Source of the DNA: Bacteroidales bacterium
Lineage (GTDB): Bacteria; Bacteroidota; Bacteroidia; Bacteroidales; VadinHA17
Direction: 5' to 3'
NCBI GenBank assembly: GCA_025454795.1
Contig: JALONT010000010.1
Span: 1 to 64,000, forward strand
DNA length: 64,000 nucleotides
A program made the translations under genes and the position numbers. The notes beneath the pieces were generated by a model that worked only from the letters and a program-made list of their open reading frames with translations, did not search any database and had not been told where the DNA came from. The first letter of the stretch is position 1. Every line of letters begins with the position of its first letter. Shown here piece after piece: positions 24,551-50,857 of the stretch.

Positions 24551-25906
24551 TTAGAAAGTAATTTTTGAGATTGCTTCGTCAACTTCAGCAGTTGTAAGTT
24601 CGTGATCGGGGAGATTGTTCTCGAAATACTTTTCATAAGCAGAGATGTCCATATGACCGTGACCGCTAAGGTTAAAAAGTATTGTCCTTGAGACTCCTTC
24701 CAGGTCTGCCTTTCTTGCCTCGTCAAGTGCAGCGGCAATGGCATAATTGGATTCGGGAGCAGGAAGAATACCTTCAGTCTTTGCAAAAAGCACACCACCT
24801 TCAAAGCATTCTCTCTGCATCTTTGCCTTTGCTTCAATAAATCCGTCTTTGAGGAGCTGGCTTACGAGCACTCCTGCACCGTGGTAACGTAAACCGCCAG
24901 CATGTATCCCTGCGGGTATAAAATTATGTCCGAGAGTATACATAGGAAGGAGAGGGGTCATCCCGGCAGAATCACCAAAATCGTACATGAATTTTCCCTT
25001 GGTAAGTTTTGGGCATGAAGCTGGCTCAACGGTCAAGAGCCTGATATCTTTTCCGTTAAGAAGCTTCTCGCGCAGGAATGGAAATGCAATTCCCGAGAAG
25101 TTAGAACCACCTCCAAAGCAGCCAATTACAACATCTGGATAATCGCCAGTCTTTTCCATCTGAAGCAAAGCCTCCTGTCCTATGATGGTCTGGTGAAGGA
25201 TTACATGGTTGAGTACGCTGCCGAGGGAATATTTGGTATAGGGGTCCTGCACTGCCACCTCCATGGCTTCGGAAATTGCAATACCCAGACTCCCCGGAGA
25301 TTCAGGGTCCAATTCAAGTATTTTCCTTCCGGCTGCTGTCATATTACTTGGTGAAGGAATTACCTTTGCACCATAGGTATTCATTAAGAGCTTGCGACCT
25401 GGTTTCTGGTCATAACTGACCCTTACCATAAATACCAGCAGTTCAAGTCCGAAATGTTGACAGGCAAAGCTCATAGCACTACCCCATTGTCCTGCTCCAG
25501 TTTCTGTTGTGATCCTTTTAATTCCCTCTTTTTTGTTGAAATAAGCCTGGGCAATGGCAGTGTTTGCCTTGTGGGAACCTGAATAATTACCTCCCTCATA
25601 CTTATAATAGATCTTGCTTTTTGTACCCAGAACTTTTTCAAGGTTGATTGCCCTGAACAGAGGAGAGGGACGATAAGTTTTGTAGAGGTCAAGAACCTCA
25701 TCCGGTATATCAATATATCTCTCGGTTGATACTTCCTGTTTTATAAGCTCCATAGGGAAAACAGCAGCAAGGTCCTCAGGGCCAACAGGTTGCCTGGTGA
25801 CCGGATTAAGCGGTGGCAGAGGCTTGTTTGGCATATCAGCCTGGATATTATACCATTGACGCGGCATTTCTTTTTCGCTCAGTGAAATTTTTGTACTCTT
25901 TTTCAT
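24551..25906 (-). CDS. trpB2: Tryptophan synthase beta chain 2 (TrpB2-type)
   Basis: PLP enzyme condensing indole with serine to give tryptophan. At 451 residues it belongs to the longer TrpB2 group, not the ~400-residue TrpB1. The PLP lysine is Lys113 in GNYSGSHKANTA, and the phosphate loop is GCFGGGSNFSG. TrpB2 features such as the N-terminal PRQWYNIQADMP and the RPSPLFRA substrate loop are visible. No trpA or other trp gene is nearby. The gene has its own leader with two Trp codons and a terminator (25951-26080), which implies control by tryptophan and thus a true role in tryptophan synthesis or indole salvage. Confidence 0.92.
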   Translation of the reverse strand: MKKSTKISLSEKEMPRQWYNIQADMPNKPLPPLNPVTRQPVGPEDLAAVFPMELIKQEVSTERYIDIPDEVLDLYKTYRPSPLFRAINLEKVLGTKSKIYYKYEGGNYSGSHKANTAIAQAYFNKKEGIKRITTETGAGQWGSAMSFACQHFGLELLVFMVRVSYDQKPGRKLLMNTYGAKVIPSPSNMTAAGRKILELDPESPGSLGIAISEAMEVAVQDPYTKYSLGSVLNHVILHQTIIGQEALLQMEKTGDYPDVVIGCFGGGSNFSGIAFPFLREKLLNGKDIRLLTVEPASCPKLTKGKFMYDFGDSAGMTPLLPMYTLGHNFIPAGIHAGGLRYHGAGVLVSQLLKDGFIEAKAKMQRECFEGGVLFAKTEGILPAPESNYAIAAALDEARKADLEGVSRTILFNLSGHGHMDISAYEKYFENNLPDHELTTAEVDEAISKITF

Positions 25907-25950
25907 AGTTTTAATTATTAATTATTAATTGGTAATTGAAATTATTTAAA

Positions 25951-25980
25951 CAAAAAAGGCACGCTGTGAACAGCGTGCCT
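25951..25980 (-). terminator. Attenuator terminator before trpB2
   Basis: A perfect 10-bp stem (AGGCACGCTG / CAGCGTGCCT) with a 4-nt loop, followed on the minus strand by TTTTTTG, ending 44 nt before the trpB2 start codon. The 8 nt TTCACAGC spanning its loop and 3' arm are exactly complementary to GCTGTGAA at 26029-26022 inside the leader ORF, giving a competing antiterminator fold. Confidence 0.88.
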
Positions 25981-26005
25981 ATATAATTCTGATATCTTTT
26001 AAGGG

Positions 26006-26080
26006 TTATACAATGGCCTGTTTCACAGCATCAATTGATGAACTGCGCCACGACCAATTATATATCCTCCTTGTCTTCAC
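26006..26080 (-). CDS. trp leader peptide (attenuator), TGG TCG TGG
   Basis: A short ORF too small for standard gene calling, on the minus strand upstream of trpB2. In frame from a GTG it reads MKTRRIYNWSWRSSS... to a TAA at 26006, 24 residues, with two Trp codons (TGG TCG TGG) at positions 9 and 11. A ribosome stalled there would leave GCTGTGAA (codons 18-20) free to pair with the terminator. The start codon is uncertain: the nearest promoter match puts the transcript start almost on the GTG, and an AGGAGG lies inside the frame. The Trp codons and terminator are the strong part of the evidence. Confidence 0.72.
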   Translation of the reverse strand: MKTRRIYNWSWRSSSIDAVKQAIV

Positions 26081-26085
26081 AGGTG

Positions 26086-26118
26086 CAAATCTATATAAAA
26101 AATTCAATTCAGTGCAAA
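26086..26118 (-). promoter_or_regulatory. Candidate promoter of the trpB2 unit
   Basis: On the minus strand TTTG (26118-26115) lies 21 nt before TAGATTTG (26093-26086), matching the Bacteroidetes -33/-7 consensus. The predicted start, about 7 nt downstream, coincides with the leader GTG, so either the leader mRNA is leaderless or a different start is used. Confidence 0.5.
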
Positions 26119-26186
26119 AAAGTTAATTTTTTTTATTTTTATAATGAGTTTTAATAGATATGTTACTTGATTAATTCATTTTAAGA

Positions 26187-27437
26187 TTATTCGTAAACCT
26201 CTGCCCCGATACTTCTGAGATCATCAAAAAAACCCGGGTATGATTTGCCAATGCAATGTGAATCCTTGATATAGACTTTATCAGTTGCACCCAGTCCGGC
26301 TACAGCGGCTGCCATTGCAATGCGATGATCGTCATGTGAATTAACATGCGTTCCTTTTACTTTTCCTCCCGTAATGAGCAAATAATCATCACTTATTTCA
26401 ACCTTAATACCCATCTTCCCCAGCTCTTCCACAAGGGCAACAGCACGATTACTCTCCTTATGTATCAGCCTGCTCACGCCGTTAATTCCTGATACCCCTT
26501 TGCTGTATGCTGCAAGAACTGCAAGAGGAGGGAAGAGATCGGGCGATTCAGAAGCATCAAATTCGAATGCTTTTAGTTCAGATTTCTTAATTTCAATTGC
26601 GTTATTGGTGATTGTCATCTTTGCACCAGCTTTATCGAGTGCAGTAAGTATTGCTTTATCGCTTTGACGGCTTCCGGGATTGAGTCCATTGACAGTGATA
26701 TGCCCGGTTATAGCACCGGCAACCAGAAGAAATGCACCACCGCTCCAGTCACTTTCGACTTCAAATCTGGTTGGTTTATATTTCTGGTTACCCTTTATAA
26801 TAAACTGTTTATAATGATCGTTTTTAATTTTTATTCCAAATTTTCCGAGCACCTGGAGTGTCATATCAATATAGGGTTTACTCTTCAGGTTATTAACTAT
26901 AACCTCGGAGTCTTTTTCTGCAACAGGAAGAGCCATCAGCAAACCTGTAAGTAACTGTGAGCTGACTGACCCATCAATTTCGCAATTTCCACCTTTTAAA
27001 GGTCCTTCAATTGTCAGTGGCAGAAATCCTCCTTCACTGATGCATCTGACACCAAACTGTTTAAGCGCATTCTCGATCATCGACATGGGTCTTCTTTTAA
27101 GGGAACCCGCTCCTGTAAGAATTATTTCGGCTGGATATAATGCTGCAATTGGTGAAAACATCCTGATTGCCAGGCCCGACTCTCCACAATTAAGCTTTTT
27201 CTCCCTTAGTTCGCCGGCCCCTGTGATCTTCATTTCACCTATGCCAGGATTAACCCTTGCCCCAAGACCGACAGCCAGGGTCATTGCAGCAAGAGAATCG
27301 TCACAATATGATGGATTGAGGATAGTGCTCTCTCCCTCGGCAAGAAGAGATGCTGCAATAGCACGTTGTGTCATGCTTTTTGATGATGGAGCATTGATAT
27401 TACCTTTTAACTTAGAGGGCACTATTATTCTTTCCAT
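26187..27437 (-). CDS. aroA: 3-phosphoshikimate 1-carboxyvinyltransferase (EPSP synthase)
   Basis: Sixth step of the shikimate pathway: transfers enolpyruvate from PEP to shikimate 3-phosphate. The protein has 416 residues. Motifs seen are APSSKSMTQRAIAASLLA at the N-terminus (shikimate-phosphate binding), NCGESGLAIRMFSPIAALYP (PEP site; the variant ESG replaces the usual NSGTxxR, seen in some class II-like enzymes) and HDDHRIAMAAAVAG. It is the last gene of the phe/tyr unit, 14 nt after the DAHP synthase fusion; the trpB2 leader begins about 70 nt downstream. Confidence 0.93.
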   Translation of the reverse strand: MERIIVPSKLKGNINAPSSKSMTQRAIAASLLAEGESTILNPSYCDDSLAAMTLAVGLGARVNPGIGEMKITGAGELREKKLNCGESGLAIRMFSPIAALYPAEIILTGAGSLKRRPMSMIENALKQFGVRCISEGGFLPLTIEGPLKGGNCEIDGSVSSQLLTGLLMALPVAEKDSEVIVNNLKSKPYIDMTLQVLGKFGIKIKNDHYKQFIIKGNQKYKPTRFEVESDWSGGAFLLVAGAITGHITVNGLNPGSRQSDKAILTALDKAGAKMTITNNAIEIKKSELKAFEFDASESPDLFPPLAVLAAYSKGVSGINGVSRLIHKESNRAVALVEELGKMGIKVEISDDYLLITGGKVKGTHVNSHDDHRIAMAAAVAGLGATDKVYIKDSHCIGKSYPGFFDDLRSIGAEVYE

Positions 27438-27451
27438 TTCTTCCTCCCTTT

Positions 27452-28570
27452 TTAGTGGTTTGAATGGTTATGGTTTTCGATGCCGTTATTCATAATCTTC
27501 ATCTGCCGGTTAATTGACTCCTGGTGGATTGCCCTGAACATGTTATTAATCAGCTCTGAGCTGAGTCCTTTTGACTGACCTTTGATCATTACTCTTTTTA
27601 CAATTTCGTCCCAGCGTGTGCTTTGTAAGATAGTGATATTATTTTCTTTTTTATACTTTCCAATGGTTTCTGAGACTTTCATTCGCTGTTCCATCAGATC
27701 AATGAGATGATCATCAAATACATCTATCTGCTGTCTCAGTTCTCCAAGAACATCAAGAAGTTTTGGATCGGAGGGTAAAGCATTACGAAGGATCAGCCTG
27801 CTCAGCAACTCTTTGAGATCATTTGGCGTGAGCTGCTGTGAGGCATCACTCAGAGCCTTATCAGGATTTATATGGGATTCGATCATCAGCCCGTCGAAGT
27901 TCAGATCCATAGCTTTCTGCGAGATATCAAGAATATATTCACGTGCTCCGGCAATATGACTTGGATCACAGATGATAGGCAAATCGGGAATCCTTCTTCT
28001 CAGTTCAATCGGTAACTGCCAGTTGGGCTGATTACGGTAGGTTGTTTTCTCATAGGAGGAGAATCCCCGGTGAATGGCACCCAGTCTTTTTATTCCGGCT
28101 TTAGCTACTCTTTCAAGGGCTCCGATCCACAATTCAATATCAGGATTTATAGGATTCTTAATAAAGACCATAACATCCACGCCTTTCAGAGCATCAGCGA
28201 TCTCCTGCACAGTGAAAGGATTTACAGATGTCCTGGCTCCGATCCACAGCATATCGATGCCATGTTTCAATGCTTCATAAACATGCTTCTGATTTGCTAC
28301 TTCGGTAGCAACCGGGAGGCCTGTTTCCTGCCTGACATGCCTTAGCCATTTAAGTCCTTCATTGCCAATACCTTCAAATGAATTCGGACGTGTCCGTGGT
28401 TTCCAGATACCTGCTCTGAAAATACTGATATTGTTTATCTTTGCCAGCTGCCTGGCAGTCTCCATTACCTGTTCTTCAGTCTCTGCACTGCAGGGACCTG
28501 AGATCAGGAAAGGTCTGCCGTTATAACCTTCCCACTCTTTAATCAGTGATGTATCGAGTTTTACTACCAT
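27452..28570 (-). CDS. Bifunctional DAHP synthase / chorismate mutase
   Basis: Residues ~1-260 are a class Ibeta 3-deoxy-7-phosphoheptulonate synthase (FLISGPCSAETEEQVMETA, KPRTRPNSFEGIG, GLPVATEV, PIICDPSHIAGAREYI), the first committed aromatic step. Residues ~280-372 form a type II chorismate mutase (LRQQIDVFDDHLIDLMEQRM, IGKYKKENNITI), which makes prephenate. Fusion of the first and the branch-point enzymes in this order is common in Bacteroidetes and allows prephenate-type feedback on carbon entry. It lies between tyrA (15 nt upstream) and aroA (14 nt downstream) in one operon. Length is 372 residues, start at ATG 28570. Confidence 0.93.
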   Translation of the reverse strand: MVVKLDTSLIKEWEGYNGRPFLISGPCSAETEEQVMETARQLAKINNISIFRAGIWKPRTRPNSFEGIGNEGLKWLRHVRQETGLPVATEVANQKHVYEALKHGIDMLWIGARTSVNPFTVQEIADALKGVDVMVFIKNPINPDIELWIGALERVAKAGIKRLGAIHRGFSSYEKTTYRNQPNWQLPIELRRRIPDLPIICDPSHIAGAREYILDISQKAMDLNFDGLMIESHINPDKALSDASQQLTPNDLKELLSRLILRNALPSDPKLLDVLGELRQQIDVFDDHLIDLMEQRMKVSETIGKYKKENNITILQSTRWDEIVKRVMIKGQSKGLSSELINNMFRAIHQESINRQMKIMNNGIENHNHSNH

Positions 28571-28585
28571 CTGTCAGTCAGTTGA

Positions 28586-29431
28586 TTAATTCAATATTTT
28601 TCTTATTTTATTTGCTTCTTCCATTAATGATTTCAACCCCTCGGTATCTTTCCCGGAAATCAATTTTTTAAAAATATTCATCTTTTCGATATAAGTATCA
28701 ATAGCTTCTATAATATATTTTGAGTTTTCAGAAAAGATCGGAGCCCATGTGTCGCCGTTGCTCTTGGCAAGACGTACTGTACTCTCAAAACCGCCACCGG
28801 CAAGCGTAAGAATATTTTCTTCCTCCTGCTCTTTTTCCAGGACACTCAGCGCCAGTGAAAATGATGTTATGTGAGAAATGTGGGAAACGTAAGCAACGTG
28901 TACATCATGTAATGCAGAATTCATATACACTATACGCATATTAAGGATCTTAAGCATTTTTTCAATCAGAGCGTTGGCATCCGGATCACTTAGTTCAGGA
29001 TCGCAGATTATAACAGTTTTATAATCGAAAAGTTTTCCGATTGCGGCAAGAGGACCAGAGTACTCAGTACCTGCCATGGGGTGAGTCGCTACATATCTTC
29101 CCCTTTGTGGATGATCCTTTGAAATTTCTGCAATGCTGCCTTTTGTCGAGCCCATATCTGCAACTACTTTTGATGTCCCGGAAATTCTGTCAAGAATTCC
29201 TGGCAGCATATCACAGTTTGAATCAACAGGTGTACAAAGAAGTATCAGATCGCTTCTGTAGATAGCATTATCGAGCGTATCTGCCTCATCAATTATCCCG
29301 CATAGCAATGCGATATTCTGATGCTGAAGGTTTGAATCCACACCGATGATCTTATCAGCGAATCCTCGTTTGCGGAGGTCGAGCATTAAAGAGCCTCCTA
29401 TCAGTCCTATACCTACTACTGCAATTGTCAT
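28586..29431 (-). CDS. tyrA: Prephenate dehydrogenase
   Basis: Oxidises prephenate to 4-hydroxyphenylpyruvate for tyrosine. The 281-residue protein has an N-terminal Rossmann motif (IAVVGIGLIGGSLMLDL), the DMGSTKGSI loop, the conserved HPMAGTEYSGP with its catalytic histidine, and a C-terminal helical dimer domain. No ACT domain is attached, so tyrosine feedback may act elsewhere. The ATG is immediately preceded by a run of 7-bp AAATAAG repeats (29441-29469) where a ribosome-binding region would be. It sits between the aminotransferase and the DAHP synthase fusion. Confidence 0.92.
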   Translation of the reverse strand: MTIAVVGIGLIGGSLMLDLRKRGFADKIIGVDSNLQHQNIALLCGIIDEADTLDNAIYRSDLILLCTPVDSNCDMLPGILDRISGTSKVVADMGSTKGSIAEISKDHPQRGRYVATHPMAGTEYSGPLAAIGKLFDYKTVIICDPELSDPDANALIEKMLKILNMRIVYMNSALHDVHVAYVSHISHITSFSLALSVLEKEQEEENILTLAGGGFESTVRLAKSNGDTWAPIFSENSKYIIEAIDTYIEKMNIFKKLISGKDTEGLKSLMEEANKIRKILN

Positions 29432-29440
29432 TCTGGTTAT

Positions 29441-29469
29441 TTGTTATTTCTTATTTCTTATTTCTTATT
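29441..29469. repeat. Tandem 7-bp repeat (TTATTTC) upstream of tyrA
   Basis: About four copies of a 7-mer (TTATTTC on the plus strand, AAATAAG in the mRNA sense) fill the 49-nt gap between the aminotransferase and tyrA, starting roughly 10 nt before the tyrA ATG, in the translation initiation region. Confidence 0.8.
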
Positions 29470-29480
29470 GGACTTATTAA

Positions 29481-30656
29481 TCACATTTTTTTTGAAAGTA
29501 AATAATCTGAGATTCTTGTTTTTGCTACTTTCAGGGTTTTTTCATCGGCACACAAAGATATCCTGATGTAACGATCGCCTCCGGCACCGAAGATAAAGCC
29601 CGGAGTCAGGAAAACATGAGTTTTATTCAGAATTTCTTCGACAAACGTTTCACAGCTGTCAATCTCTTCGGGAAGCCTGCCCCATACGAATAAGCCAACC
29701 TGTTCTTTATTAAAGCTGCATTTAAGGAGAAGCATGATCTCTTCTACTATTTTCCGGCGTTGAAAATAAACTCTGTTTACAGTTTCATACCAGGAGGGAG
29801 GATTTCCAAGCGCCTCAACTGCAGCTACCTGCATTGCCCTGAACATTCCGGAGTCCATATTGCTTTTTATTTTCAGAATGGTGTTGATATATTCTTTATG
29901 TCCGGCTACCATGCCTATTCTCCATCCCGCCATGTTATGCGATTTACTTAGTGAATTGAGCTCAAGAGCAATCTCCTTTGCCCCATCCACTGCCAGAAGA
30001 CTATAGTATTCATTATTCAGAATGAAGCTATAAGGATTATCGTTGCAGAGCAGAATATTGTGTTTTGAAGCAAAAGCAACGAGCTTTTCATAAAGAGCGA
30101 CAGATCCGTTTGTACCGCTTGGCATATGAGGATAATTGACCCACATGATTTTCACCCTTCCCAGATCACTGTCCTCAAGTTTATCAAGATCAGGAAGCCA
30201 TCCGTTTTTCTCATCCAGTTCATAATATCTGACGTTGCCGCCAACGAGCTTAGTAACTGATGTATAAGTGGGATATCCGGGATCCGGTACCAGTACATCA
30301 TCTCCCTGATTGACGAATGCCATGCTGATATGCATTATCCCCTCTTTACTGCCCATCAGTGGAAGTATTTCGTTTTCAGGGTCAAGATCGACATGAAAAT
30401 AAGTCTTGTACCAATCTGCAAAAGCCTTGCGAAGAGCCGGCATGCCCGTATAGCTCTGGTATCCGTGGGAGGTGGGCTTTGCAGCTTCCACACCCAGGTA
30501 CCTGATTGTATTTTCAGATGGTGGCTGGTCGGGGCTGCCGATACCCAGGTTTATAACATCGGCTCCGGATTTGCGCATCTGGTCTATCTCTCTTAGTTTC
30601 CGGGAAAAATAGTATTCCTGGACACTGCCTGTTCTGTCTGCCGGTTTAACTTTCAT
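29481..30656 (-). CDS. PLP-dependent aminotransferase of the phe/tyr cluster
   Basis: A 391-residue class I aminotransferase, with INLGIGSPDQPPSENTI near the N-terminus, NYPHMPSGT, LCNDNPYSF and the PLP-lysine motif SLSKSHNMAGWRIGMV. It resembles the LL-diaminopimelate/aspartate aminotransferase-like group. Its position between pheA and tyrA suggests it aminates phenylpyruvate and 4-hydroxyphenylpyruvate to Phe and Tyr, an inference from context. The start was placed at ATG 30656, overlapping the pheA end by 11 nt; the first possible start (30716) would overlap by 71 nt and adds residues that do not fit the family. Confidence 0.85.
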   Translation of the reverse strand: MKVKPADRTGSVQEYYFSRKLREIDQMRKSGADVINLGIGSPDQPPSENTIRYLGVEAAKPTSHGYQSYTGMPALRKAFADWYKTYFHVDLDPENEILPLMGSKEGIMHISMAFVNQGDDVLVPDPGYPTYTSVTKLVGGNVRYYELDEKNGWLPDLDKLEDSDLGRVKIMWVNYPHMPSGTNGSVALYEKLVAFASKHNILLCNDNPYSFILNNEYYSLLAVDGAKEIALELNSLSKSHNMAGWRIGMVAGHKEYINTILKIKSNMDSGMFRAMQVAAVEALGNPPSWYETVNRVYFQRRKIVEEIMLLLKCSFNKEQVGLFVWGRLPEEIDSCETFVEEILNKTHVFLTPGFIFGAGGDRYIRISLCADEKTLKVAKTRISDYLLSKKM

Positions 30657-31476
30657 ATAAATGTTCTCCTTTATTATAGATCCCCAGAACCTCAAGATTT
30701 GTGGTGTAATTTTCAAGGATATTTTTTATGAGAGGAATATCATGATCAGGATTAAGCTCAAGATCAAGATAAAATAAATATTCCCATTCCCCGTTTAGTC
30801 TGGGAACCGACTGGATCTTCGACAGATTTATCTCCAGTTCTGCAAGCCTCACGAGAACTGCTGCCAGTGAGCCAGGTTTATGCCCTGTTGAGAAGCAGAT
30901 TGAGACTTTATTTCCGTCTGTATTTGCATCTTTCTCTTCACAAAGAACAAGGAAACGAGTGTAATTCTTCTTATAGGTCTCTATTCCGGGAGCAAGAATC
31001 TCAAGTCTATATAGCTCTGCAGTCGCTGCAGATGCAATAGCAGCTACGCCGGGCAGTTTACTTTCACTGATTTGTCTTGCACTTCCGGCAGTATCATCAC
31101 TCTCCACCAGCAATACTCCACGCAGGTGATTAAGAAATGACATGCATTGTGAAAGTGCAATGGGATGAGACCTGATCTCCCTGATCGCCATAATTGTCTG
31201 TCCCGGTAATGCCATCAGATTCTGCCTTATCCTGAGGTTAATTTCCCCGATTATCTTCATTCCTGATTCCCTTATCAGAGAATAATTATATAGTATGCTC
31301 CCTGACCTGGCATTTTCGATAGCCATAACTGCGAATTCAGCCTCTTTCTCCTTCACTGCCATCAGAGTAAGATCGAATGTGGAACATGGTACAATGTCGA
31401 TGGCTTGATTATTGAAAAAATGTCTTGCGGCAACTTCGTGAAAACTACCTTTTTCTCCCTGAATTGAAATTTTCAT
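30646..31476 (-). CDS. pheA: Prephenate dehydratase with ACT domain
   Basis: Converts prephenate to phenylpyruvate. The 276-residue protein has a periplasmic-binding-like catalytic part (ISIQGEKGSFHEVAARHFF, FAVMAIENARSGSI, SHPIALSQC, AAIASAATAELY) and a C-terminal ACT domain (ICFSTGHKPGSLAAVLVRLA, ending ESRP-like IQSVPRLNGEWEYLFYLDL) for phenylalanine feedback. No chorismate mutase domain is attached; that is in the DAHP synthase fusion. The start is ATG 31476: the longer frame would begin with a TTG inside the attenuator hairpin and T-tract. First gene of the phe/tyr unit. Confidence 0.93.
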   Translation of the reverse strand: MKISIQGEKGSFHEVAARHFFNNQAIDIVPCSTFDLTLMAVKEKEAEFAVMAIENARSGSILYNYSLIRESGMKIIGEINLRIRQNLMALPGQTIMAIREIRSHPIALSQCMSFLNHLRGVLLVESDDTAGSARQISESKLPGVAAIASAATAELYRLEILAPGIETYKKNYTRFLVLCEEKDANTDGNKVSICFSTGHKPGSLAAVLVRLAELEINLSKIQSVPRLNGEWEYLFYLDLELNPDHDIPLIKNILENYTTNLEVLGIYNKGEHLYES

Positions 31477-31491: not shown

Positions 31492-31518
31492 AAAAAAAAA
31501 AGTCCCCAACCCGGGGAC
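31492..31518 (-). terminator. Attenuator terminator before pheA
   Basis: GTCCCC and GGGGAC (31513-31518 and 31502-31507) form a 6-bp GC stem with a 5-nt loop, followed on the minus strand by ten T residues, ending 15 nt before the pheA ATG. GGGGAT directly after the leader stop codon (31557-31552) can pair with the 5' arm GTCCCC and so prevent the terminator. Confidence 0.88.
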
Positions 31519-31557
31519 CTTGTATCATATAGTTTTTATCTGTACACAAAAATCCCC

Positions 31558-31623
31558 TTATCTTTTCTTAAAATAAAAAAAGAAATAAAAATAAGTGGCA
31601 AACCAGTTGTGTACAATATTCAT
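31558..31623 (-). CDS. phe/tyr leader peptide (attenuator)
   Basis: A 21-residue ORF (ATG 31623 to TAA 31558) upstream of pheA containing the stretch WFATYFYFFFYF: six Phe, three Tyr and one Trp codon in 21. The downstream terminator (31492-31518) and the antiterminator segment touching the stop codon complete a ribosome-stalling attenuator. Tyr and Trp codons fit an operon that also holds tyrA, DAHP synthase and aroA. A self-complementary pair (TGTACACA in codons 3-6 and TGTGTACA after the stop) could form the early pause hairpin. The start lies about 14 nt after the predicted transcript start. Confidence 0.9.
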   Translation of the reverse strand: MNIVHNWFATYFYFFFYFKKR

Positions 31624-31643: not shown

Positions 31644-31672
31644 CAAAAATATATTATTTTTTAATATAACAA
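31644..31672 (-). promoter_or_regulatory. Promoter of the phe/tyr operon
   Basis: On the minus strand TTG (31672-31670) is 18 nt before TATTTTTG (31651-31644), a full match to TAnnTTTG. The predicted start of transcription is about 14 nt before the leader ATG. It lies only ~55 nt beyond the hisIE stop codon. Confidence 0.65.
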
Positions 31673-32325: not shown

Positions 32326-32336
32326 TTATTATATCA

Positions 32337-32490
32337 CACGTACTCACCACCTTCCCTAATGCAATTCTCATTATCCGATGAACCCTTCCCCCGGCCCCTT
32401 CCCTTAAGCCCAAGGGAAGGGGAGGTGATCAATTTTATTTGGTATGTCACCCTTCCCTTATTGTTTAAGGGAAGGGCAGGGGAAGGGTTA
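32337..32490. repeat. CACGTACTCA-ended repeat inside the his operon
   Basis: It begins CACGTACTCACC, close to the left end of the elements at 4308 and 23503. Two hairpins follow: CCCTTCCCTTAAGC..AAGGGAAGGG and CCCTTCCCTTATTGTTTAAGGGAAGGG. It occupies the hisF-hisIE gap, so it is transcribed with the operon and could reduce or process the distal message. Confidence 0.65.
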
Positions 32491-32518
32491 AGAGTTCAGA
32501 AAGGGGGATTTATAAATT

Positions 32519-40113: not shown

Positions 40114-40133
40114 AAGGTAGTTTTTAATAATTG

Positions 40134-42292: not shown

Positions 42293-42312
42293 ATCAGGTT
42301 GTTTTGTGGATT

Positions 42313-43716
42313 TTAATTGGATAGCAGATCCCTGGGATCAGTAATCTTCCCGGTGACTGCTGCAGCAGCTGCGGTAAGCGGACTTGCCAGCAATGTTCTG
42401 GCTCCGGGTCCCTGGCGTCCCTCAAAATTCCTGTTCGAGGTAGAGACGGCATATTTTCCGGCAGGCACTTTATCCTCGTTCATGGCAAGGCATGAAGAGC
42501 ATCCGGGTTGTCTCATTTCAAAACCGGAATCTTTAAGTATTTTATCAAGGCCCTCATCAACAGCCTGTTGCTCTACTCTTTTTGATCCGGGAACAATAAG
42601 AGCGATTACATTTTCTGCCTTTTTTCTTCCTCTGACAAAATATGCAAATGATCTCAGATCCTCAATCCTTCCGTTTGTACAGCTGCCCAGAAAAACATAA
42701 TCAATCGGGTGACCGAGTATTTTTTCTCCGGGATTAAATCCCATATAATTCAGCGATTTGGTAAATGAAGCAGCTCCTTCCGGACTATTGTCAGCATCCG
42801 GAATTGATTCGTCGATTCCCATACCCATACCGGGATTTGTTCCGAATGTTATCATAGGTTTGATATTCCCGGCATTAAGTATAAGCTCCCGGTCGAAATG
42901 AGCCCCCTCATCGCTCTTCAGGTTCCTCCACCTTAGAAGTAGCGTTTTAAAATCGTTACGACCTGCAAGTGAAGGAATACTGTTCAGATATTCAAATGTT
43001 ATTAAGTCGGGTGCGATCAATCCGCCACGCGCGCCCATTTCTATACTCATATTGCAGATTGTCATTCTTCCTTCCATGCTCAGGGCTTCAATTGCCTGAC
43101 CGCAGTATTCAACAAAGTAACCTGTTGCTCCGCCGGATGAAACCTGGGAAATAATATAAAGTATAATATCTTTTGATGTTACACCTTCCTGAAGCTTGCC
43201 ATTAACCAGAATCTTCATCTTTTTCGGCTTGGCCTGGAGGATGCATTGTGTTGCAAGGACCATTTCTACTTCACTTGTCCCTATTCCAAAGGCAATATTA
43301 CCAAAAGCTCCGTGTGTCGATGTATGGCTGTCGCCGCAGACTATTGTCATGCCCGGCATGGTATATCCAAGCTCAGGACCAATAACATGAACAATGCCGT
43401 TTTTTGGATGGTTCAGTCCGAAATAATCGATACCAAACTCCCTGCAGTTATCATTAAGTTTCTCGACCTGGTTGCGTGACAGCTCATCCTTTATTGTAAG
43501 GTGCTGATCTCTTGTCGGTATATTATGATCAGCCGTAGCGACAGTTTTACCGGGACGGAAAACACGGATTCCCCTTTGCCTCAATCCCTCAAAAGCCTGA
43601 GGGCTGGTGACTTCATGTATAAAGTGCTGATCGATATACAGGACATCCGGGCCACTCTCTATAGAGCTGACTACATGGTTGTCCCATAACTTGTCGAATA
43701 GTGTTTTTGGTTCCAT
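42313..43716 (-). CDS. leuC: 3-isopropylmalate dehydratase large subunit
   Basis: Aconitase-family subunit carrying the [4Fe-4S] cluster; isomerises 2- to 3-isopropylmalate with LeuD. In the 467-residue protein the cluster cysteines appear in [14 protein letters not shown] and in [14 protein letters not shown]. The N-terminal [12 protein letters not shown] and the [14 protein letters not shown] motif are typical of bacterial LeuC. It is separated from leuA by 121 bp that hold a palindromic repeat. Confidence 0.96.
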
Positions 43717-43732
43717 CAGGTTTATTCCTTTT

Positions 43733-43837
43733 TTCTCTGTGGCTCTCTGTGCCTTCTCTGGATTTCCTCTGTGTAACCTAAAGAAATATAAGAACTTACA
43801 CAGAGTTACGCAGAGGAGATACAGAGTTCCACAGAGT
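43733..43837. repeat. Imperfect palindromic repeat (CTCTGTG/CACAGAG) inside the leu operon
   Basis: The left arm CTCTGTGGCTCTCTGTGCC...CCTCTGTGTAACC is complementary to the right arm (TTACACAGAG, TTACGCAGAGGAGATACAGAG, CCACAGAG). It fills the leuA-leuC gap and ends at the leuA stop codon. The same family occurs at 24437, with looser relatives at 6290 and 56628. As part of the operon mRNA it would form a long hairpin. Confidence 0.75.
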
Positions 43838-45331
43838 TTATTTTATTTTTGCAATTGCGTCAATAAATGCTTCAACTGAAGCTGTTATAATATCAGTATT
43901 TGTTCCAAAACCATAATATATTTTCCCCTGATGCTCAACCTGGATATGTACTTTACCGAGGTCATCGCTCCCTTTGGTGATAGCCTGAATGAGGAACTCC
44001 TCCAGATGGACTGTCTTGCTGATCAGGTGTTTGACAGCTGTAAATGCAGCATCAATCGGACCATTTCCTGAGGCTGTTGATGTATGAATCTCACCATTTA
44101 TTTTTACACCAACAGTTGCAACCGGGATTGCAGATTTCCCGCAAGTGACCTGCAGGAGCTCGAGCTTAAGCGATTTTTCGCCCTGAAAAACCTCGCCTGT
44201 CAGTATTCTTATGTCCTCATCGTTGATCTCTTTCTTTTTGTCAGCCAGGAGAAGGAAACGGTGGTAAATATCGTCAAGCTCCTCTTTACCAAGGTTGAAT
44301 CCCAGCAGCTCCAGCCTGTGTTTCAGTGCTGCCCTGCCGCTTCGGGCGGTAAGGATAATAGATGATTCCCTGATCCCAACTTCAACCGGATCTATAATTT
44401 CGTAGTTCTCCCTGTTCTTAAGTACCCCATCCTGGTGAATGCCCGATGAGTGCGAAAAGGCATTACGACCGACAATAGCTTTATTAGACTGGACAGGCAT
44501 GCTCATCAGGGTTGAGACAAGACGGCTTGTACTGAAGATCAGTTTCGAGTTAACTTCGGTCCTTAACTTCAGATTGTGATGGCTTTTAATGATCATTACT
44601 ATTTCTTCGAGTGATGTATTACCTGCTCTCTCGCCTATACCGTTCATTGTTACCTCGGCCTGTCTTGCACCGTTTATGATACCCATCATTGTGTTTGCCG
44701 TCGCCATTCCAAGATCGTTATGACAATGAGTTGAGATTGTTGCTTTTCCGATGTTTGGGACGTTTTCTTTAAGGTACCTGATTTTTGCACCATATTCTTC
44801 CGGGAGGCAGTAACCTGTTGTATCAGGTATGTTTACGACTGTTGCACCTGCTTTAATCACTGCTTCTATGACCCTGGCGAGGTACTCATTTTCACTGCGC
44901 CCTGCATCTTCGGCATAAAACTCCACATCCTCAACAAATTTCTTGGCGTATTTAACCGCATCAGCAGCTCTTTTAAGAATCTCTTCAGGTGTGGTTCTTA
45001 TTTTGTACTGTATATGAAAAGGAGATGTACCGATCCCTGTGTGGATCCTTTTCTTTTTTGCATACTGCAAAGCTTCTGCTGCAACCTCGATATCTTTCTT
45101 TACTGCCCTGGTCAGAGCACAGATTACAGGTGTGGTAATAGCTTTGGATATTTCAACTACCGAGTTAAAATCACCAGGGCTTGATATCGGGAAGCCTGCC
45201 TCAATAACATCTACACCAAGGGCTTCAAGAGCCTGGGCAACCTCTATTTTTTCAATAGTGTTCAGCTGGCAACCCGGCACCTGCTCGCCGTCCCTGAGTG
45301 TTGTGTCGAAAATAATGACCTTTTCGTCCAT
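43838..45331 (-). CDS. leuA: 2-isopropylmalate synthase
   Basis: First committed step of leucine synthesis: acetyl-CoA plus 2-oxoisovalerate. The 497-residue protein has [30 protein letters not shown], metal-binding [34 protein letters not shown] and the C-terminal allosteric leucine-binding domain ([20 protein letters not shown]). It is the canonical LeuA of the two homologues in this operon. It follows ilvC by 22 nt and is followed by a 121-bp repeat-bearing gap before leuC. Confidence 0.95.
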
Positions 45332-45353
45332 CGTCTTTTCTATTTAATATGAT

Positions 45354-46403
45354 TTATTTATTTTCAGGTCTGAGCTTTCTTACAGCTGCTCCTGCTCTCC
45401 ACATTTCTGAATTGCCAAGCTCATTAAGTTCCGCATCGAGAATTTCTTTATAATTTGTTGAACCGGTCGATTTAAGCACTCTTACGCACTCTTCACCTGA
45501 TTTAACCTTACTATATAGCTCGGTGAATACCGGGAGGGTGGCTTTCATGAATTTGGGACGCCAGTCAAGAGCACCCCGCTGTGCCGTGGCACTGCAGTTC
45601 GCATACATCCAGTCCATGCCTTTTTCGTCGACAAGTCTGATAAGACTCTGAGTCAGTTCTTCGACAGTCTCGTTAAATGCCTCGGAAGGAGAGTGTCCGT
45701 TTTCGCGCAGAACCTGGTACTGGGCATCCATGATTCCAGCCAGGGCTCCCATAAGAACACCTCGTTCACCTGTCAGATCAGAGAATACTTCATTCTCAAA
45801 CGTAGTGGGGAACAGGTAGCCTGAGCCAATTGCAATTCCAAGAGCAATAGTTCTTTCTTCGGCTTTACCCGTGAAATCCTGGAATACCGAATAACTCGAA
45901 TTTATACCCGCCCCTGCCAGAAAGTTACGACGGACACTTGTGCCTGAACCTTTTGGCGCGCAGAGAATTACATCAATGTCAGCCGGAGGTATGACCCCTG
46001 TATGTGTTTTATAGGTAATCGAAAAACCATGAGAGAAATAGAGTGCCTTCCCTTTTGTAAGGTGAGGTTTAAGCTTTGGCCAGAGAATTCTCTGGGCTGC
46101 ATCCGATACCAGGTATTGAATAATGGTTCCTTTTGCAGCTGCTTCCTCAATCGGAAACAGAGTTTTCCCGGGGACAAATCCATCCCTGACAGCTTTATCC
46201 CAGTCGGCTTTAAACTCAGGAGCCTGGCCAATAATGACATTGATCCCGTTATCTTTCATATTGAGAGACTGAGCCGGTCCCTGAACTCCATATCCGATTA
46301 CAGCAACAATTTCGTTTTTAAGTACTTCCCTTGCTTTTGAAAGAGGAAACTCTTCTCTTGTTACAACATTTTCAATTACACCGCCAAAATCGATTTTTGC
46401 CAT
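45354..46403 (-). CDS. ilvC: Ketol-acid reductoisomerase
   Basis: Second common step of valine, leucine and isoleucine synthesis: isomerisation and NAD(P)H reduction of acetohydroxy acids. The 349-residue class I-length enzyme has the cofactor motif VAVIGYGVQGPAQSLNMKD, CAPKGSGTSVRRNF and the metal-binding acidic helix with ENEVFSDLTGERGVLMGAL and ETVEELTQSL. It lies between ilvN and leuA in the operon. The loop after GYGVQG lacks the usual NADPH-binding arginine cluster at first sight, so cofactor preference is open. Confidence 0.94.
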   Translation of the reverse strand: MAKIDFGGVIENVVTREEFPLSKAREVLKNEIVAVIGYGVQGPAQSLNMKDNGINVIIGQAPEFKADWDKAVRDGFVPGKTLFPIEEAAAKGTIIQYLVSDAAQRILWPKLKPHLTKGKALYFSHGFSITYKTHTGVIPPADIDVILCAPKGSGTSVRRNFLAGAGINSSYSVFQDFTGKAEERTIALGIAIGSGYLFPTTFENEVFSDLTGERGVLMGALAGIMDAQYQVLRENGHSPSEAFNETVEELTQSLIRLVDEKGMDWMYANCSATAQRGALDWRPKFMKATLPVFTELYSKVKSGEECVRVLKSTGSTNYKEILDAELNELGNSEMWRAGAAVRKLRPENK

Positions 46404-46436
46404 GATAGTTTATTTTAGGTTATGTTAATTTTTGTT

Positions 46437-46994
46437 TTATTCTTCATTCTCGTCAGTATTGAACCTGTTGGCCTCATCCATCTCTTTAAGATATGAATTA
46501 AGCTCCCTGACCTGTCTGGTTATTGCCACCCTTCCTGATCTTGAAAACTGAAGGACACCATAAGGTTCAAGATGATTAAGTAATTCACTGATTTCTGTCT
46601 TATGGCCGGTCTTTTCAAGTACAATGTATTCGGGCGATACTTCTATAATCCGGGCATGATGAGTTCTTACTACATGATCGATAACATTGCCTGACATCAG
46701 TCCATTGGTTGTGACTTTATACAGTGCAATCTCCTGGTAGATGATCTCATCAGTTGTATGTACAAAGACTTTCAGAACATCGACCAGTTTTTCGATTTGT
46801 TTTGAAACTTTTCGTACCATGTCAGGTGTTGTCTTCACCACAAGTGTAAGGAGATGAACTCCTTTAACTGCAGATTCCGAAGCGGTAATGCTTTCTATGT
46901 TTATCTGTCTTCTTGTCAGTATTATGGTGATCTGGTTCAGGATACCGATGTGGTTTTCGCTGAATATAGACAATGTGTATTCCTGCTTTCCCAT
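46437..46994 (-). CDS. ilvN: Acetolactate synthase small (regulatory) subunit
   Basis: Regulatory subunit that confers valine feedback on IlvB. The 185-residue protein has an N-terminal ACT domain (LSIFSENHIGILNQITIILTRR, INIESITASES) and a C-terminal domain with VIDHVVRTHHARIIEV and GVLQFSRSGRVAI. It starts 1 nt after the ilvB stop codon, as expected for coupled subunits. Confidence 0.94.
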   Translation of the reverse strand: MGKQEYTLSIFSENHIGILNQITIILTRRQINIESITASESAVKGVHLLTLVVKTTPDMVRKVSKQIEKLVDVLKVFVHTTDEIIYQEIALYKVTTNGLMSGNVIDHVVRTHHARIIEVSPEYIVLEKTGHKTEISELLNHLEPYGVLQFSRSGRVAITRQVRELNSYLKEMDEANRFNTDENEE

Positions 46995-46995
46995 T

Positions 46996-48741
46996 TTATA
47001 TTTTATAATTAAGTGTGATTTCAGAAACTGATGCTCCTGGTTCTATCATTGGAAGAACATTACCTTCCTTTTCTATTTTTATATCCAACAGGTATGGCCC
47101 TTTTGCAGCAAGCATCTTTTCAAGAGAGCTATTAAGCTCTTTCCTGTCGGATACTTTCTTACCAGGTATGCTGAAACCTTTTGCTATTGTCACAAAATCG
47201 GGATTTACCAGCTCAGTGGATGCATATCTCTTTTTAAAGAACATCTCCTGCCATTGCCTTACCATTCCAAGATATCCGTTGTTGAGAATTACGATTTTAA
47301 CAGGAATTTTATAATGAAGAATTGTTCCCAGTTCCTGTATGGTCATCTGGAAACCGCCATCACCAATGAAAACAACAACCTGTTTATCCGGTCTGCCGAT
47401 TTTTGCTCCCACTGAAGCAGGAAGACCGAATCCCATTGTCCCCATTCCACCGGAAGTCACAAAACTTTTAGGTTCTGTAAATTTAAAATAGCGTGCAGCA
47501 GTCATCTGGTTCTGTCCGACATCGGTCACAATAACAGCATCGCCATTTGTCATCTCTGATACCATTCTCACTACTTCGCCCATGCGAATATCCCCCTTAT
47601 CGGGTTTTGTTTCGGTTTTTATAACTTTCTCATATTCAGTTTTATCACAAATTCTGAATTCACGTACCCATGATTCGTAAGATTTTTGTTCTACCAGGGG
47701 AATAAGGTACTCCAGGGCCTCTTTTGCATCGTTATGTATTTCAAGATCAACAATAACATTCTTATTGATCTCTGCTTCATCGATCTCGATATGGATTATC
47801 CTTGCCTGTTTTGCATATTTTGTAATGTTACCGGTAACCCTGTCATCAAACCGCATCCCAATAGCAATAATAAGATCGGCTTCATTGGTTAGCAGGTTGG
47901 GCCCATAATTGCCATGCATACCCAGGAACCCTGTGTACAGTCTGTGTCCGGAAGGGAAGGAGGAGAGTCCAAGAAGGGTTACAGCTACGGGGATACCGGT
48001 TTTTTCAACAAATTTTCTGAGTTCCTTTTCCGCACCGGATATAAGGACCCCGTGACCAGCAAGTATCAAAGGCTTTTCTGCATGATTAATCATTATTGCA
48101 GCAGAATCCAGAGCTCTTTTGTTTAAAGGGATATGAGGATTATAACTTCTCATGTAGCTGCACTTTTTGTACTTGAATGAGCACTTCTCTATCTGTGCAT
48201 CTTTTGTAATATCGATCAGAACAGGTCCTGGCCTGCCGTTTGTGGCAATGTAAAATGCTTTTGCAATAGTGTTGGAAATATCCTGGGCTTTTTTGACCTG
48301 GCAATTCCACTTAGTTACAGGCATTGATACGCCGAGAATATCTGTTTCCTGGAATGCATCGGTACCGATGAGGCCAGATACGACCTGGGCAGTTATGAAT
48401 ACCATCGGGACAGAGTCGAGATATGCATTGGCAATTCCGGTAATAAGGTTTGTTGCACCCGGACCAGATGTAGCAAAGCAGATCCCTGGTTTGCCTGAGA
48501 CCATTGCATATGCCTGGGCTGCATGTGCGGCACCTTGTTCATGCCGGGTCAGAATATGTCTCAGCTTATCATTAAAGTCAAGCAGCTTGTCATAAACGGG
48601 CATTATGGCACCACCCGGGTAACCGAAAATTGTATCCACTCCTTCTGCAATAAGGCATCTCAGCAGAGCTTCAGCTCCTGTGATATGCTCATAGCCATTG
48701 ACTTGCTGTATTATCTGCTTTGCTTCTTCTTCACTTTTCAT
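46996..48741 (-). CDS. ilvB: Acetolactate synthase large subunit
   Basis: ThDP- and FAD-dependent catalytic subunit that joins two pyruvates, or pyruvate and 2-oxobutyrate. At 581 residues it is full length. Landmarks are the catalytic Glu in GYPGGAIMPVYDKL / HEQGAAHAAQAYA, the FAD region and the ThDP motif GDGGFQMTIQELGTILHYKIP. The start was set at ATG 48741: a longer frame to 48834 exists, but its extra residues (KNPLLGGARGGF) are just the translation of a REP-like repeat and not protein. It lies between ilvD and ilvN. Confidence 0.95.
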   Translation of the reverse strand: MKSEEEAKQIIQQVNGYEHITGAEALLRCLIAEGVDTIFGYPGGAIMPVYDKLLDFNDKLRHILTRHEQGAAHAAQAYAMVSGKPGICFATSGPGATNLITGIANAYLDSVPMVFITAQVVSGLIGTDAFQETDILGVSMPVTKWNCQVKKAQDISNTIAKAFYIATNGRPGPVLIDITKDAQIEKCSFKYKKCSYMRSYNPHIPLNKRALDSAAIMINHAEKPLILAGHGVLISGAEKELRKFVEKTGIPVAVTLLGLSSFPSGHRLYTGFLGMHGNYGPNLLTNEADLIIAIGMRFDDRVTGNITKYAKQARIIHIEIDEAEINKNVIVDLEIHNDAKEALEYLIPLVEQKSYESWVREFRICDKTEYEKVIKTETKPDKGDIRMGEVVRMVSEMTNGDAVIVTDVGQNQMTAARYFKFTEPKSFVTSGGMGTMGFGLPASVGAKIGRPDKQVVVFIGDGGFQMTIQELGTILHYKIPVKIVILNNGYLGMVRQWQEMFFKKRYASTELVNPDFVTIAKGFSIPGKKVSDRKELNSSLEKMLAAKGPYLLDIKIEKEGNVLPMIEPGASVSEITLNYKI

Positions 48742-48767
48742 AAGTTTGTTTTTTATCGTTTGAAACC

Positions 48768-48797
48768 CACCCCTTGCCCCTCCCAGGAGGGGATTTT
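48768..48797. repeat. Short REP-like hairpin between ilvD and ilvB
   Basis: AACCCACCCCTTGCCCCTCCC followed by AGGAGGGGATTT; CCCCTCC and GGAGGGG form a stem. The sequence class is like the C-rich elements at 4308, 19510, 23503 and 32337. It is in the transcribed spacer of the ilv operon. Confidence 0.5.
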
Positions 48798-48836
48798 TTT
48801 CTATTGTCTCCCGACTCCCGTCTTCCGTCTTCAATC

Positions 48837-50663
48837 TTATATTTCCCTTACGGCTCCTTTATCAGCTGAGCTTACCGTAGCTGCGTAAGCCCTTAATGAA
48901 GCCGGAATTTCCCGGTCTCTTTTTTCAGGTTTGAATGCCAGTTTTCCTCTTTTTTCTTCTTCTTTATATCTTTTAGTCAGTTCTTTCCCGGTAAGCTTGA
49001 CATTAATTTCTCTTTGTGAGATATTTATTTCAATTATGTCACCAGATCTGATCAACGCTATATTGCCCTTCGCAGCAGCCTCAGGCGAAACATGTCCGAT
49101 AGATAAGCCGGATGTACCTCCGGAAAACCTGCCGTCGGTAATCAGGGCACATTTTTTTCCAAGTCCCATTGATTTGAGATATGAAGTAGGATAGAGCATC
49201 TCCTGCATACCGGGACCTCCCTTTGGCCCTTCATATCTTATAACGACAAAGTTACCTTCGCGTACCTTTCCTCCGAGGATCCCTTCGACTGCTTCTTCCT
49301 GTGATTCAAAAACAACTGCCGGCCCTGAGAAGGAATACGATCCGGGATCGACACCTGCGGTCTTGACTATGCATCCATTTTCTGCAATATTCCCATAGAG
49401 GACCGCAAGTCCGCCATCTTTGCTATATGGATGCTTAACACTTCTTATGCAGCCTTTTTCCCTGTCAGTATCAAGCTCTTTATATAAAGTATCCTGGGAT
49501 CCCATTTCAAGGCTTTTTTTCCCTGCAGGAGCACTTCTGAAAAAGTCAAATGCTTCCTGTTTTGCTTTTCCGCCCAGAATGTCCCAGTCTGCAATTGCAT
49601 CGTGCAGGGTTGGGTAATCAACCCGACCCGCTGATGTGTCTATCAGGTTATTGCGTTCCAGTTCACCCATTATTGACATGATACCTCCTGCACGGTTTAC
49701 ATCCTGGACATGATAATGTGAGCTTGGTGCGACTTTACAGATATTTGGTATTTTACGGGAGAGAGCATCAATATCCTTCATTGTAAAACCGACTCCTGCT
49801 TCCTGTGCAAGGGCGAGCAGATGAAGAACAGTATTGGTTGATCCGCCCATTGCAATATCGAGAGACATTGAATTCAAGAAAGCAGTTTTTGTTGCAATAG
49901 AGCGTGGAAGCACGCTGGAGTCTCCCTCCTTGTAGTACCTGTTTGTCAGACTGACTAAAAGATTTGCTGCTTTCAGGAATAACTTATGACGGTTGGCATG
50001 AGTTGCCAGTACAGTACCATTTCCCGGAAGAGCTAAACCCAGCGCCTCATTCAGGCAATTCATGGAGTTTGCAGTGAACATACCGGAACAGGATCCGCAG
50101 GTAGGACACGCTGATCTCTCAGTTTCTCTTAATTCTTCTTCACTGACGTTTTTATCAGGACCTTCGACCATAGCATCAATAAGATCGAGGTACCTGTTTC
50201 CCAAACGGCCGGCTTCCATAGGACCACCTGATACAAATACTGTTGGTATATTAAGCCGCAGGGCTGCCATCATCATTCCGGGCGTTATTTTATCGCAGTT
50301 GCTGATACAAATCATGGCATCAGCGCAATGGGCATTGCAGACATATTCAACACTGTCGGCAATGAGTTCGCGTGAGGGCAGGGAATAGAGCATCCCGGCA
50401 TGTCCCATCGCTATACCATCGTCGATTGCAATCGTATTGAACTCTGCTGCAAAAAAACCATGCTTCTCAATCTCTTTCTTGACGATCTGGCCAATTTCAT
50501 GAAGATGAACATGCCCGGGAACAAACTGTGAAAATGAATTGACAATTGCTATTACTGGTTTGCCAAAGCTCTCCTCCTTCATTCCATTTGCACGCCAGAG
50601 GCTCCTGGCGCCGGCCATGTTCCTTCCTGTGATCGTTTTTAAGCTCCTGAGCTGATTTTCCAT
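48837..50663 (-). CDS. ilvD: Dihydroxy-acid dehydratase
   Basis: Iron-sulfur enzyme dehydrating 2,3-dihydroxy acids to 2-oxo acids for valine, isoleucine and leucine. The 608-residue protein has cluster-binding cysteines in [13 protein letters not shown] and [18 protein letters not shown], plus [16 protein letters not shown] near the N-terminus and [21 protein letters not shown] near the C-terminus. It is the first gene of the ilv-leu operon, preceded at 17 nt by the attenuator T-tract. Confidence 0.96.
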
Positions 50664-50679
50664 TTTAATACTCTTTTAT

Positions 50680-50710
50680 AAAAAAAAACTTCCCGGTTTT
50701 CCGGAAAGCT
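50680..50710 (-). terminator. Attenuator terminator before ilvD
   Basis: CTTTCCGG and CCGGGAAG form an 8-bp stem (one T-G pair) with an AAAA loop, followed on the minus strand by an uninterrupted run of T residues, 17 nt before the ilvD ATG. CCGGGAG, 1 nt after the leader stop codon, can pair with the 5' arm (CTTTCCGG) and oppose termination. Confidence 0.88.
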
Positions 50711-50745
50711 TTGGTATGTTTATAGTCTTACATATTACTCCCGGA

Positions 50746-50805
50746 TCAGGTGCTTTGCACAAGAATAAGAATGAGGGCAACAATATGTAATAAAGAATTT
50801 CTCAT
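50746..50805 (-). CDS. ilv-leu leader peptide (attenuator)
   Basis: A 19-residue ORF (ATG 50805 to TGA 50746) reading MRNSLLHIVALILILVQST: five Leu, three Ile and two Val codons. It stands in front of an operon that makes all three branched-chain amino acids. The terminator lies 36 nt beyond its stop codon, and an antiterminator segment (CCGGGAG) starts 1 nt after the stop. A second hairpin (TATGT...ACATA) lies between. The hydrophobic composition could suggest a signal peptide, but the stop codon and hairpins make a leader peptide the better call. Confidence 0.88.
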   Translation of the reverse strand: MRNSLLHIVALILILVQST

Positions 50806-50827
50806 CGTTTTGCTTTAATTCAAGGGA

Positions 50828-50857
50828 CAAAACTAGTCTTAATTTTAATATTTCAAA
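50828..50857 (-). promoter_or_regulatory. Promoter of the ilv-leu operon
   Basis: On the minus strand TTTG (50857-50854) lies 18 nt before TAGTTTTG (50835-50828), a full match to both Bacteroidetes promoter boxes. Predicted transcription starts about 16 nt before the leader ATG. Confidence 0.7.

Follow-up and report, generated by a model that had tools for sequence, protein, structure and literature searches.

The 64,000-nucleotide window considered here (contig JALONT010000010.1 of a Bacteroidales bacterium of the VadinHA17 lineage) carries 23 genes on its minus strand between positions 24551 and 50663, arranged in four units: nine ilv-leu genes, eight his genes, five genes of aromatic amino acid synthesis and a single trpB2. 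The question raised by this locus is whether each unit is regulated through the translation of a short open reading frame (ORF) lying in front of it. An earlier note on this DNA had proposed such control, and the number of genes and units that it gave is borne out by gene identities assigned with NCBIfam families (Table 1). In enteric attenuators a leader with control codons is accompanied by alternative 1:2, 2:3 and 3:4 helices, and a terminator lies before the first gene. From sequence, conservation and folding we conclude with high confidence that the four units are preceded by ribosome-mediated transcription attenuators, to which the trp operon of the same genome adds a fifth.

Leader ORFs and their control codons

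All four leader ORFs reported in the earlier note were re-found exactly, on the minus strand. In the window they stop 81-99 nucleotides (nt) upstream of the first gene, with a terminator in between, and each of these predicted ORFs is rich in codons for the end product of its unit, as expected of a leader-peptide attenuator. HisG, IlvD, PheA and TrpB2 served as queries against sixty relatives, with matches in 49, 47, 46 and 53 of them, and the best 30 loci per gene, all from the same genus, formed the genus set in which leaders were called by inspection. The two loci lacking the ilv leader are interrupted by an assembly gap (L044) or a contig end (L059). The start codon of the trpB2 leader is GTG in the window and ATG in 25 aligned relatives.

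Table 1. Positions of genes, leaders, terminators and promoters of the four units, with supporting counts
Feature	Position	Strand	Support
ilv-leu leader ORF MRNSLLHIVALILILVQST	50746..50805	-	Ile/Leu/Val control codons; 28/30 genus loci
his leader ORF MYLNSSHHHHYHTCSQARR	38907..38966	-	present in 29/30 genus loci
phe/tyr leader ORF MNIVHNWFATYFYFFFYFKKR	31558..31623	-	present in 30/30 genus loci
trp leader ORF (GTG)KTRRIYNWSWRSSSIDAVKQAIV	26006..26080	-	Trp codons in NWSW; 26/30 genus loci
ilv intrinsic terminator (3:4)	50685..50712	-	95.4% of cells paired, 28 loci
his intrinsic terminator	38850..38876	-	99.6% of cells paired, 29 loci
phe intrinsic terminator	31499..31521	-	80.5% paired in the window's register; 83.8% after one-base slide
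trpB2 intrinsic terminator (3:4)	25957..25980	-	97.4% of cells paired, 26 loci
ilv-leu promoter -7 box TAGTTTTG	50828..50835	-	TAnnTTTG in 28/28 loci; shuffles 113/1400
his promoter -7 box TATCTTTG	38985..38992	-	TAnnTTTG in 27/29 loci; shuffles 139/1450
phe/tyr promoter -7 box TATTTTTG	31644..31651	-	TAnnTTTG in 30/30 loci; shuffles 162/1500
trpB2 promoter -7 box TAGATTTG	26086..26093	-	21 nt after TTTG (-33 element); 26/26 loci
ilvD-ilvB-ilvN-ilvC-leuA-leuC-leuD-cimA-like-leuB	39052..50663	-	NCBIfam
hisG-D-C-B-H-A-F-IE	31726..38808	-	NCBIfam
pheA, DapL-like aminotransferase, tyrA, DAHP synthase, aroA	26187..31476	-	NCBIfam
trpB2 (TrpB-like pyridoxal phosphate enzyme)	24551..25906	-	NF009057, 709 bits

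For each operon the best short upstream ORF was scored for the cognate amino acid, with dinucleotide shuffles as the baseline. The score of the window leader was reached in 2 (his), 10 (ilv), 8 (phe) and 80 (trpB2) of 3000 shuffles. Among genus and order loci together (L059 was excluded from this test), no more than one shuffle in 100 reached the own-target score at 42/49 his, 35/45 ilv, 41/43 phe and 29/43 trpB2 loci. The other three targets reached this level in only 0-3 loci per set, so that the bias is operon-specific. Elsewhere in the order other families have different leader sequences with the same control codons, for example MNNTLHHHHHHCNSSR, MFYYYFFYYP and CWRWRWW; at several order-level loci no leader was seen in the upstream region.

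A scan of 130 kb of the genome itself, on both strands and with no preset amino acid, found 41 terminators and 59 candidate leader ORFs beside them. The phe leader ranked 3rd among the 59, his 4th, trpE 5th and ilv 10th; that of trpB2 was not in the best 22 of the 59 candidates listed. A short ORF next to a hairpin is evidently common here, and the hairpins might be plain operon-end terminators between units placed end to end, with the ORFs as coincidental AT-rich frames. The absence of any other strong terminator between the units (the single match, after leuB, is weak, with 6 pairs) would fit this, as would a number of terminator-like matches between units no different from that in shuffles. 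The ORFs, however, hold the codons of the downstream pathway, with peptides that differ across families and phylum, and the promoter motif described below lies upstream of the leader, so that the hairpin would be within the transcript of the downstream unit. We regard this explanation as very unlikely. Between the last stop of a unit and the start of the following leader lie 85, 102 and 106 nt; of the intervals of under 100 bp claimed earlier, one therefore stands and two do not.

Compared with shuffles, the 5′ regions fold more stably (z-scores of -3.0 to -4.4), which would also be expected of a riboswitch or T-box binding a ligand or tRNA, the ORFs then having no role. Rfam was scanned at gathering thresholds, where nothing matched, including the His_leader, Phe_leader and Trp_leader families, and permissively, with E up to 5, where six matches appeared; neither scan gave a covariance-model match to a T-box or amino-acid riboswitch. 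The three best matches other than miRNA families were Phe_leader (E 0.15), His_leader (0.69) and Trp_leader (0.29), all sub-threshold and each on the right operon. The ORF itself also constrains conservation: variation in the ilv leader is lowest at codon position 2 (0.206, 0.098 and 0.328 at the three positions) and the phe leader varies by exchange of Phe and Tyr. For his and trpB2 codon-position divergence among the genus loci gave no clean coding signal. Control by a riboswitch or T-box thus appears hardly credible. The leaders share control codons, alternative helices and terminator with the enteric his, phe, trp and ilv leaders (RF00514, RF01859, RF00513) but score below the Rfam gathering thresholds of those families: His 28.2 against 49, Phe 31 against 55 and Trp 25.5 against 41 bits.

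Terminators, alternative helices and ribosome position

In the attenuation mechanism that we propose, RNA polymerase would initiate at a TAnnTTTG promoter just 5′ of a leader ORF of 19-24 codons, on which a ribosome would start without a Shine-Dalgarno sequence. With charged tRNA ample, the ribosome at the stop codon would cover segment 2, and terminator 3:4 would form before the first gene. With the amino acid scarce, the ribosome would halt on the control codons and cover segment 1, leaving segment 2 free. In his, ilv and phe, segment 2 could then pair with the 5′ arm of the terminator, and in trpB2 with the terminator loop and 3′ arm; in either case transcription would continue. We infer leader translation, coupling of transcription to translation and a response to starvation from this arrangement.

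An intrinsic terminator was found between leader and first gene at all four units, as the earlier note had stated. Seven of the 120 loci were left out of the genus counts of structure, folding, promoters and divergence, because they had no leader (L008, L099, L102, L117), an assembly gap (L044) or a contig end (L059, L105). Slid controls for terminator pairing gave at most 58.6% (his), 71.8% (ilv), 83.8% (phe) and 53.8% (trpB2).

The segment near the leader stop that was said to be able to pair with the terminator is likewise present in all four units and kept across the genus. In ilv the terminator 5′ arm TTCCGGA can pair instead with TCCGGGA at the leader stop, and the two parts of this 2:3 helix are paired in 92.3% and 95.7% of cells (28 loci). 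The end of the his leader, CAGGCGAGG (last codons CAG GCG AGG), is similar to the terminator 3′ arm and can therefore pair with the 5′ arm; the two parts of this helix are paired at 85.8% (at slide -1; the initial register gave 35.8%) and 95.9%. In phe the leader start TGTACACAA pairs with TTGTGTACA 3′ of the stop (1:2, 92.2% of cells), and the terminator 5′ arm GGTCCCC pairs alternatively with GGGGATT near the leader stop (2:3, 85.7% in the register of the window and 91.3% at slide +1). The slid values are higher in phe because the register is shifted in some members of the genus. The trpB2 leader segment GCTGTGAA pairs with TTCACAGC, comprising the terminator loop and 3′ arm; this 2:3 helix is paired in 96.1% of cells (26 loci), with changes on both sides in the loop at L107, L109 and L112 and in the arm at L113 and L115. 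Over the four families the 1:2 helices are paired in 62.1% to 99.4% of cells.

The RNA left free by a ribosome placed either on a control codon or on the stop codon was folded; the edge of the ribosome footprint, 13 nt downstream, is an assumption. With the 3′ arm not yet made, stalling added more than 0.3 to the masking of the 5′ arm at 29/29 his, 27/28 ilv, 30/30 phe and 17/26 trpB2 loci. The same gain was seen in 91/580, 109/560, 141/600 and 118/520 segment-shuffled controls, respectively. Folding thus yields an exclusive antiterminator that depends on ribosome position, strongly for his, ilv and phe and more weakly for trpB2.

Several results weigh against attenuation or limit it. In folds of the full length at equilibrium the terminator was lost by more than 0.3 at 0/29 his, 8/28 ilv, 11/30 phe and 14/26 trpB2 loci (controls 2/580, 3/560, 2/600 and 2/520), leaving 29/29 his, 20/28 ilv and 19/30 phe loci at which no such loss occurred; the his switch and most of those of ilv and phe would thus have to be kinetic. 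The losses at trpB2, in contrast, speak for the switch. Median masking of the 5′ arm without a ribosome was 0.48 for his, 0.67 for ilv, 0.93 for phe and 0.33 for trpB2, so that in ilv and phe the arm is largely masked beforehand and coupling would be required. At nine of the 26 trpB2 loci stalling gave no masking gain above 0.3. Alignment with relatives, which the earlier note had named as a check, upheld the conservation of control codons, terminators and 2:3 pairings; pairs changed on both sides are few, at 0-3 per helix, a number that slid versions at times match or surpass. The trpB2 leader segment is altered without a matching change in the loop at L092, L098 and L106. No leader was found at his in L008 or at trpB2 in L099, L102 and L117. 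Finally, trpB2 is the weakest of the four cases: its leader has two Trp codons only and its window locus misses the codon cut-off (4/100 shuffles). Since it also falls outside the best candidates of the 130-kb scan, the case for trpB2 rests mainly on conservation.

Promoters and translation starts

The motif TAnnTTTG was searched in the 60 nt preceding the leader start and was found in 8-17% of shuffles, to be compared with the counts in Table 1. A TTG lies 17-23 nt further upstream at 19/27 his, 26/28 ilv, 30/30 phe and 24/26 trpB2 loci (a count with no shuffle baseline). The median distance from TAnnTTTG to the leader start is 18 nt in his, 22 in ilv and 20 in phe. In trpB2 it is exactly 5 nt at 25/26 loci, and the five bases are variable. 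The -7 box is reported at -12 to -5 relative to the transcript start (PMC9723704), which together with the 5-nt spacing places the start of the trpB2 transcript at about the first base of the leader. The trpB2 leader is thus probably leaderless, with a start site deduced from promoter spacing. Leaderless mRNAs are uncommon in the phylum: they make up 5.5% in Flavobacterium psychrophilum (PMC9723704), and 5′ untranslated regions shorter than 10 nt about 3.7% in Bacteroides thetaiotaomicron (PMC7366714). A Trp attenuator RNA beginning at the leader ATG is described for trpL of Sinorhizobium meliloti (PMC7298713); that leader precedes trpE(G) in an alphaproteobacterium, whereas the present one precedes a stand-alone trpB2.

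Shine-Dalgarno-like 4-mers before the leaders were found at 0/29 his, 0/28 ilv, 1/30 phe and 0/26 trpB2 loci. On leaderless mRNA a GTG start, as in the window trpB2 leader, is unusual. The enteric-type layout claimed earlier holds for the anatomy of ribosome-mediated attenuation, but the present units depart from it in the lack of Shine-Dalgarno sequences, the TAnnTTTG promoters and the probably leaderless trpB2 leader; the trpB2 antiterminator, formed on the terminator loop and 3′ arm, also differs from those of enteric leaders. Absence of a classical Shine-Dalgarno sequence is reported for Bacteroidota mRNAs (PMC7366714).

Distribution in the phylum and the remaining units

Leaders were surveyed within the order for ilv, phe and trpB2, and across the phylum for his. 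The latter survey covered 40 of the 102 other phylum genomes that have a HisG match: 22 of the 24 in the same class and 18 of the 78 in others (17 from closer HisG matches). A His leader was present in 33 of the 40, comprising 22/22 of the same class and 11/18 of the others, against a baseline of 1/40 opposite strands and 98/2000 shuffles. A strict scan found his terminators in 15/22 and 7/18, respectively, and in 4/160 shuffles.

Five hisG leaders from other classes (L332, L334, L337, L339, L340) contain 8-10 His codons, and the scan found no intrinsic terminator there; their read-out may differ.

Such His-rich leaders without a detected terminator would suit a role mainly in translation of the first gene, by re-initiation or masking of the ribosome site, rather than in termination, and leaders near a gene may boost its translation through re-initiation (PMC4833913). 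In the window, however, the terminator stands in the 81-99 nt separating leader stop and gene, and the alternative pairing covers a terminator arm rather than the gene start. For the four units we give this alternative very little credence, and retain transcription attenuation.

Of 36 genus-group genomes, 14 have the four genes in the same order on a single contig, spanning about 25 kb in 13 and 36 kb in one; in the remainder they are mostly on separate draft contigs, and linkage is uninformative. In other sampled families the four genes are mostly on different contigs, yet many have leaders, which therefore look older than the block. The single block, judged from these sequences, is a genus-level arrangement and not the unit of control, contrary to the earlier view that control is exerted from a single chromosomal block.

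At L008 the his terminator is retained without the leader, and leuB ends near this terminator. At L099 and L102 the trpB2 terminator hairpin is kept without a Trp leader ORF; trpB2 may there be constitutively damped or read from upstream.

The trpEGDCFBA operon of the same genome, on contig C79, is likewise preceded by a leader, MRLLVNNWWWQILPVTYGR, with a terminator behind it, and is the fifth such case. At 28/30 trpE loci, this one included, a short ORF containing two or more Trp codons lies upstream (a count with no shuffle baseline); none was found at the other two of these loci, L208 and L215. At thrA (C47), checked as a further candidate, no leader ORF was found. The claim that most amino-acid synthesis is controlled in this way, examined outside the block at trp and thrA, gains support from the trp operon but not from thrA, and is not borne out as written.

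In fifteen of the 36 genus-group genomes, some of them incomplete assemblies, neither TrpA nor TrpB1 was found and TrpE gave no strong match, with a weak partial one in G009. All 15 keep trpB2, and the Trp leader is kept in the 14 that are testable (the locus in G035 is cut). Of the other genomes, 19 have a testable trpB2, with the leader present in 16 and absent in three; four of these 19 (G004, G018, G020, G021) have no match to either TrpE or TrpA. Leader retention does not differ significantly between the two groups (14/0 against 16/3; Fisher p 0.24). No trpB2 match was found in G023 and G027 of the 36. Thermococcus TrpB2 is reported in indole salvage (Hiyama 2014, cited in PMC11085991), and we infer that indole salvage by TrpB2 is here under Trp control. 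Leaders show what an operon answers to, and in this case they tie TrpB2 to tryptophan in genomes seemingly unable to make it.

For F. psychrophilum, of the same phylum, 'strong clues' have been reported for leader-peptide attenuation upstream of amino-acid operons, and the structured 5′ elements of hisG and pheA are conserved in other Flavobacteriaceae without Rfam matches (PMC9723704). Section 19 of that report gives no ORFs, pairings or wider survey and does not name ilv, trpB2 or phylum-wide His leaders. In our literature search it was the sole direct report for the phylum among the matches listed. Short ORFs 'reminiscent of leader peptides' are mentioned for B. thetaiotaomicron (PMC7366714). 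According to PMC2965389 (2010), leader-peptide systems had been known from Proteobacteria and Actinobacteria alone until its own Firmicutes case. In the available text of PMC8305728, on his genes in this superphylum, attenuation comes up once, with reference to enteric bacteria. Lopatovskaya 2010 and Lyubetsky 2007, cited in PMC4833913, may already deal with Bacteroidetes and so may have priority.

The kind of control is known; its spread in the phylum, the starts free of Shine-Dalgarno sequences and the probably leaderless trpB2 leader are the points of interest. We lean slightly towards the view that attenuation is an ancestral control of amino-acid operons in Bacteroidota, working without Shine-Dalgarno sequences, and that one branch placed a leaderless Trp leader on a stand-alone TrpB2, kept where the trp operon is gone and tying indole salvage to tryptophan supply. 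If so, transcription and translation would be tightly coupled in Bacteroidota, since attenuation works only with the first ribosome close behind RNA polymerase; conserved attenuators would make this coupling testable with native reporters.

Upstream of thrA (L218:1242-1302) lies the promoter motif TATCTTTG, then, after 14 nt, the hairpin GCATCC-TGA-GGATGC with a T run, directly before the gene. It may be an attenuator with a read-out that does not involve a leader peptide.

Two genes within the units deserve mention. A second LeuA-like enzyme is encoded at 40134-41693 of the window, with (R)-citramalate synthase NF042433 as best match (694 bits, cut-off 950), and this CimA-like gene within the ilv-leu unit suggests a citramalate route to isoleucine. 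The aminotransferase between pheA and tyrA (29481-30716) is DapL-like by family score, below cut-offs, and is presumably the Phe/Tyr transaminase.

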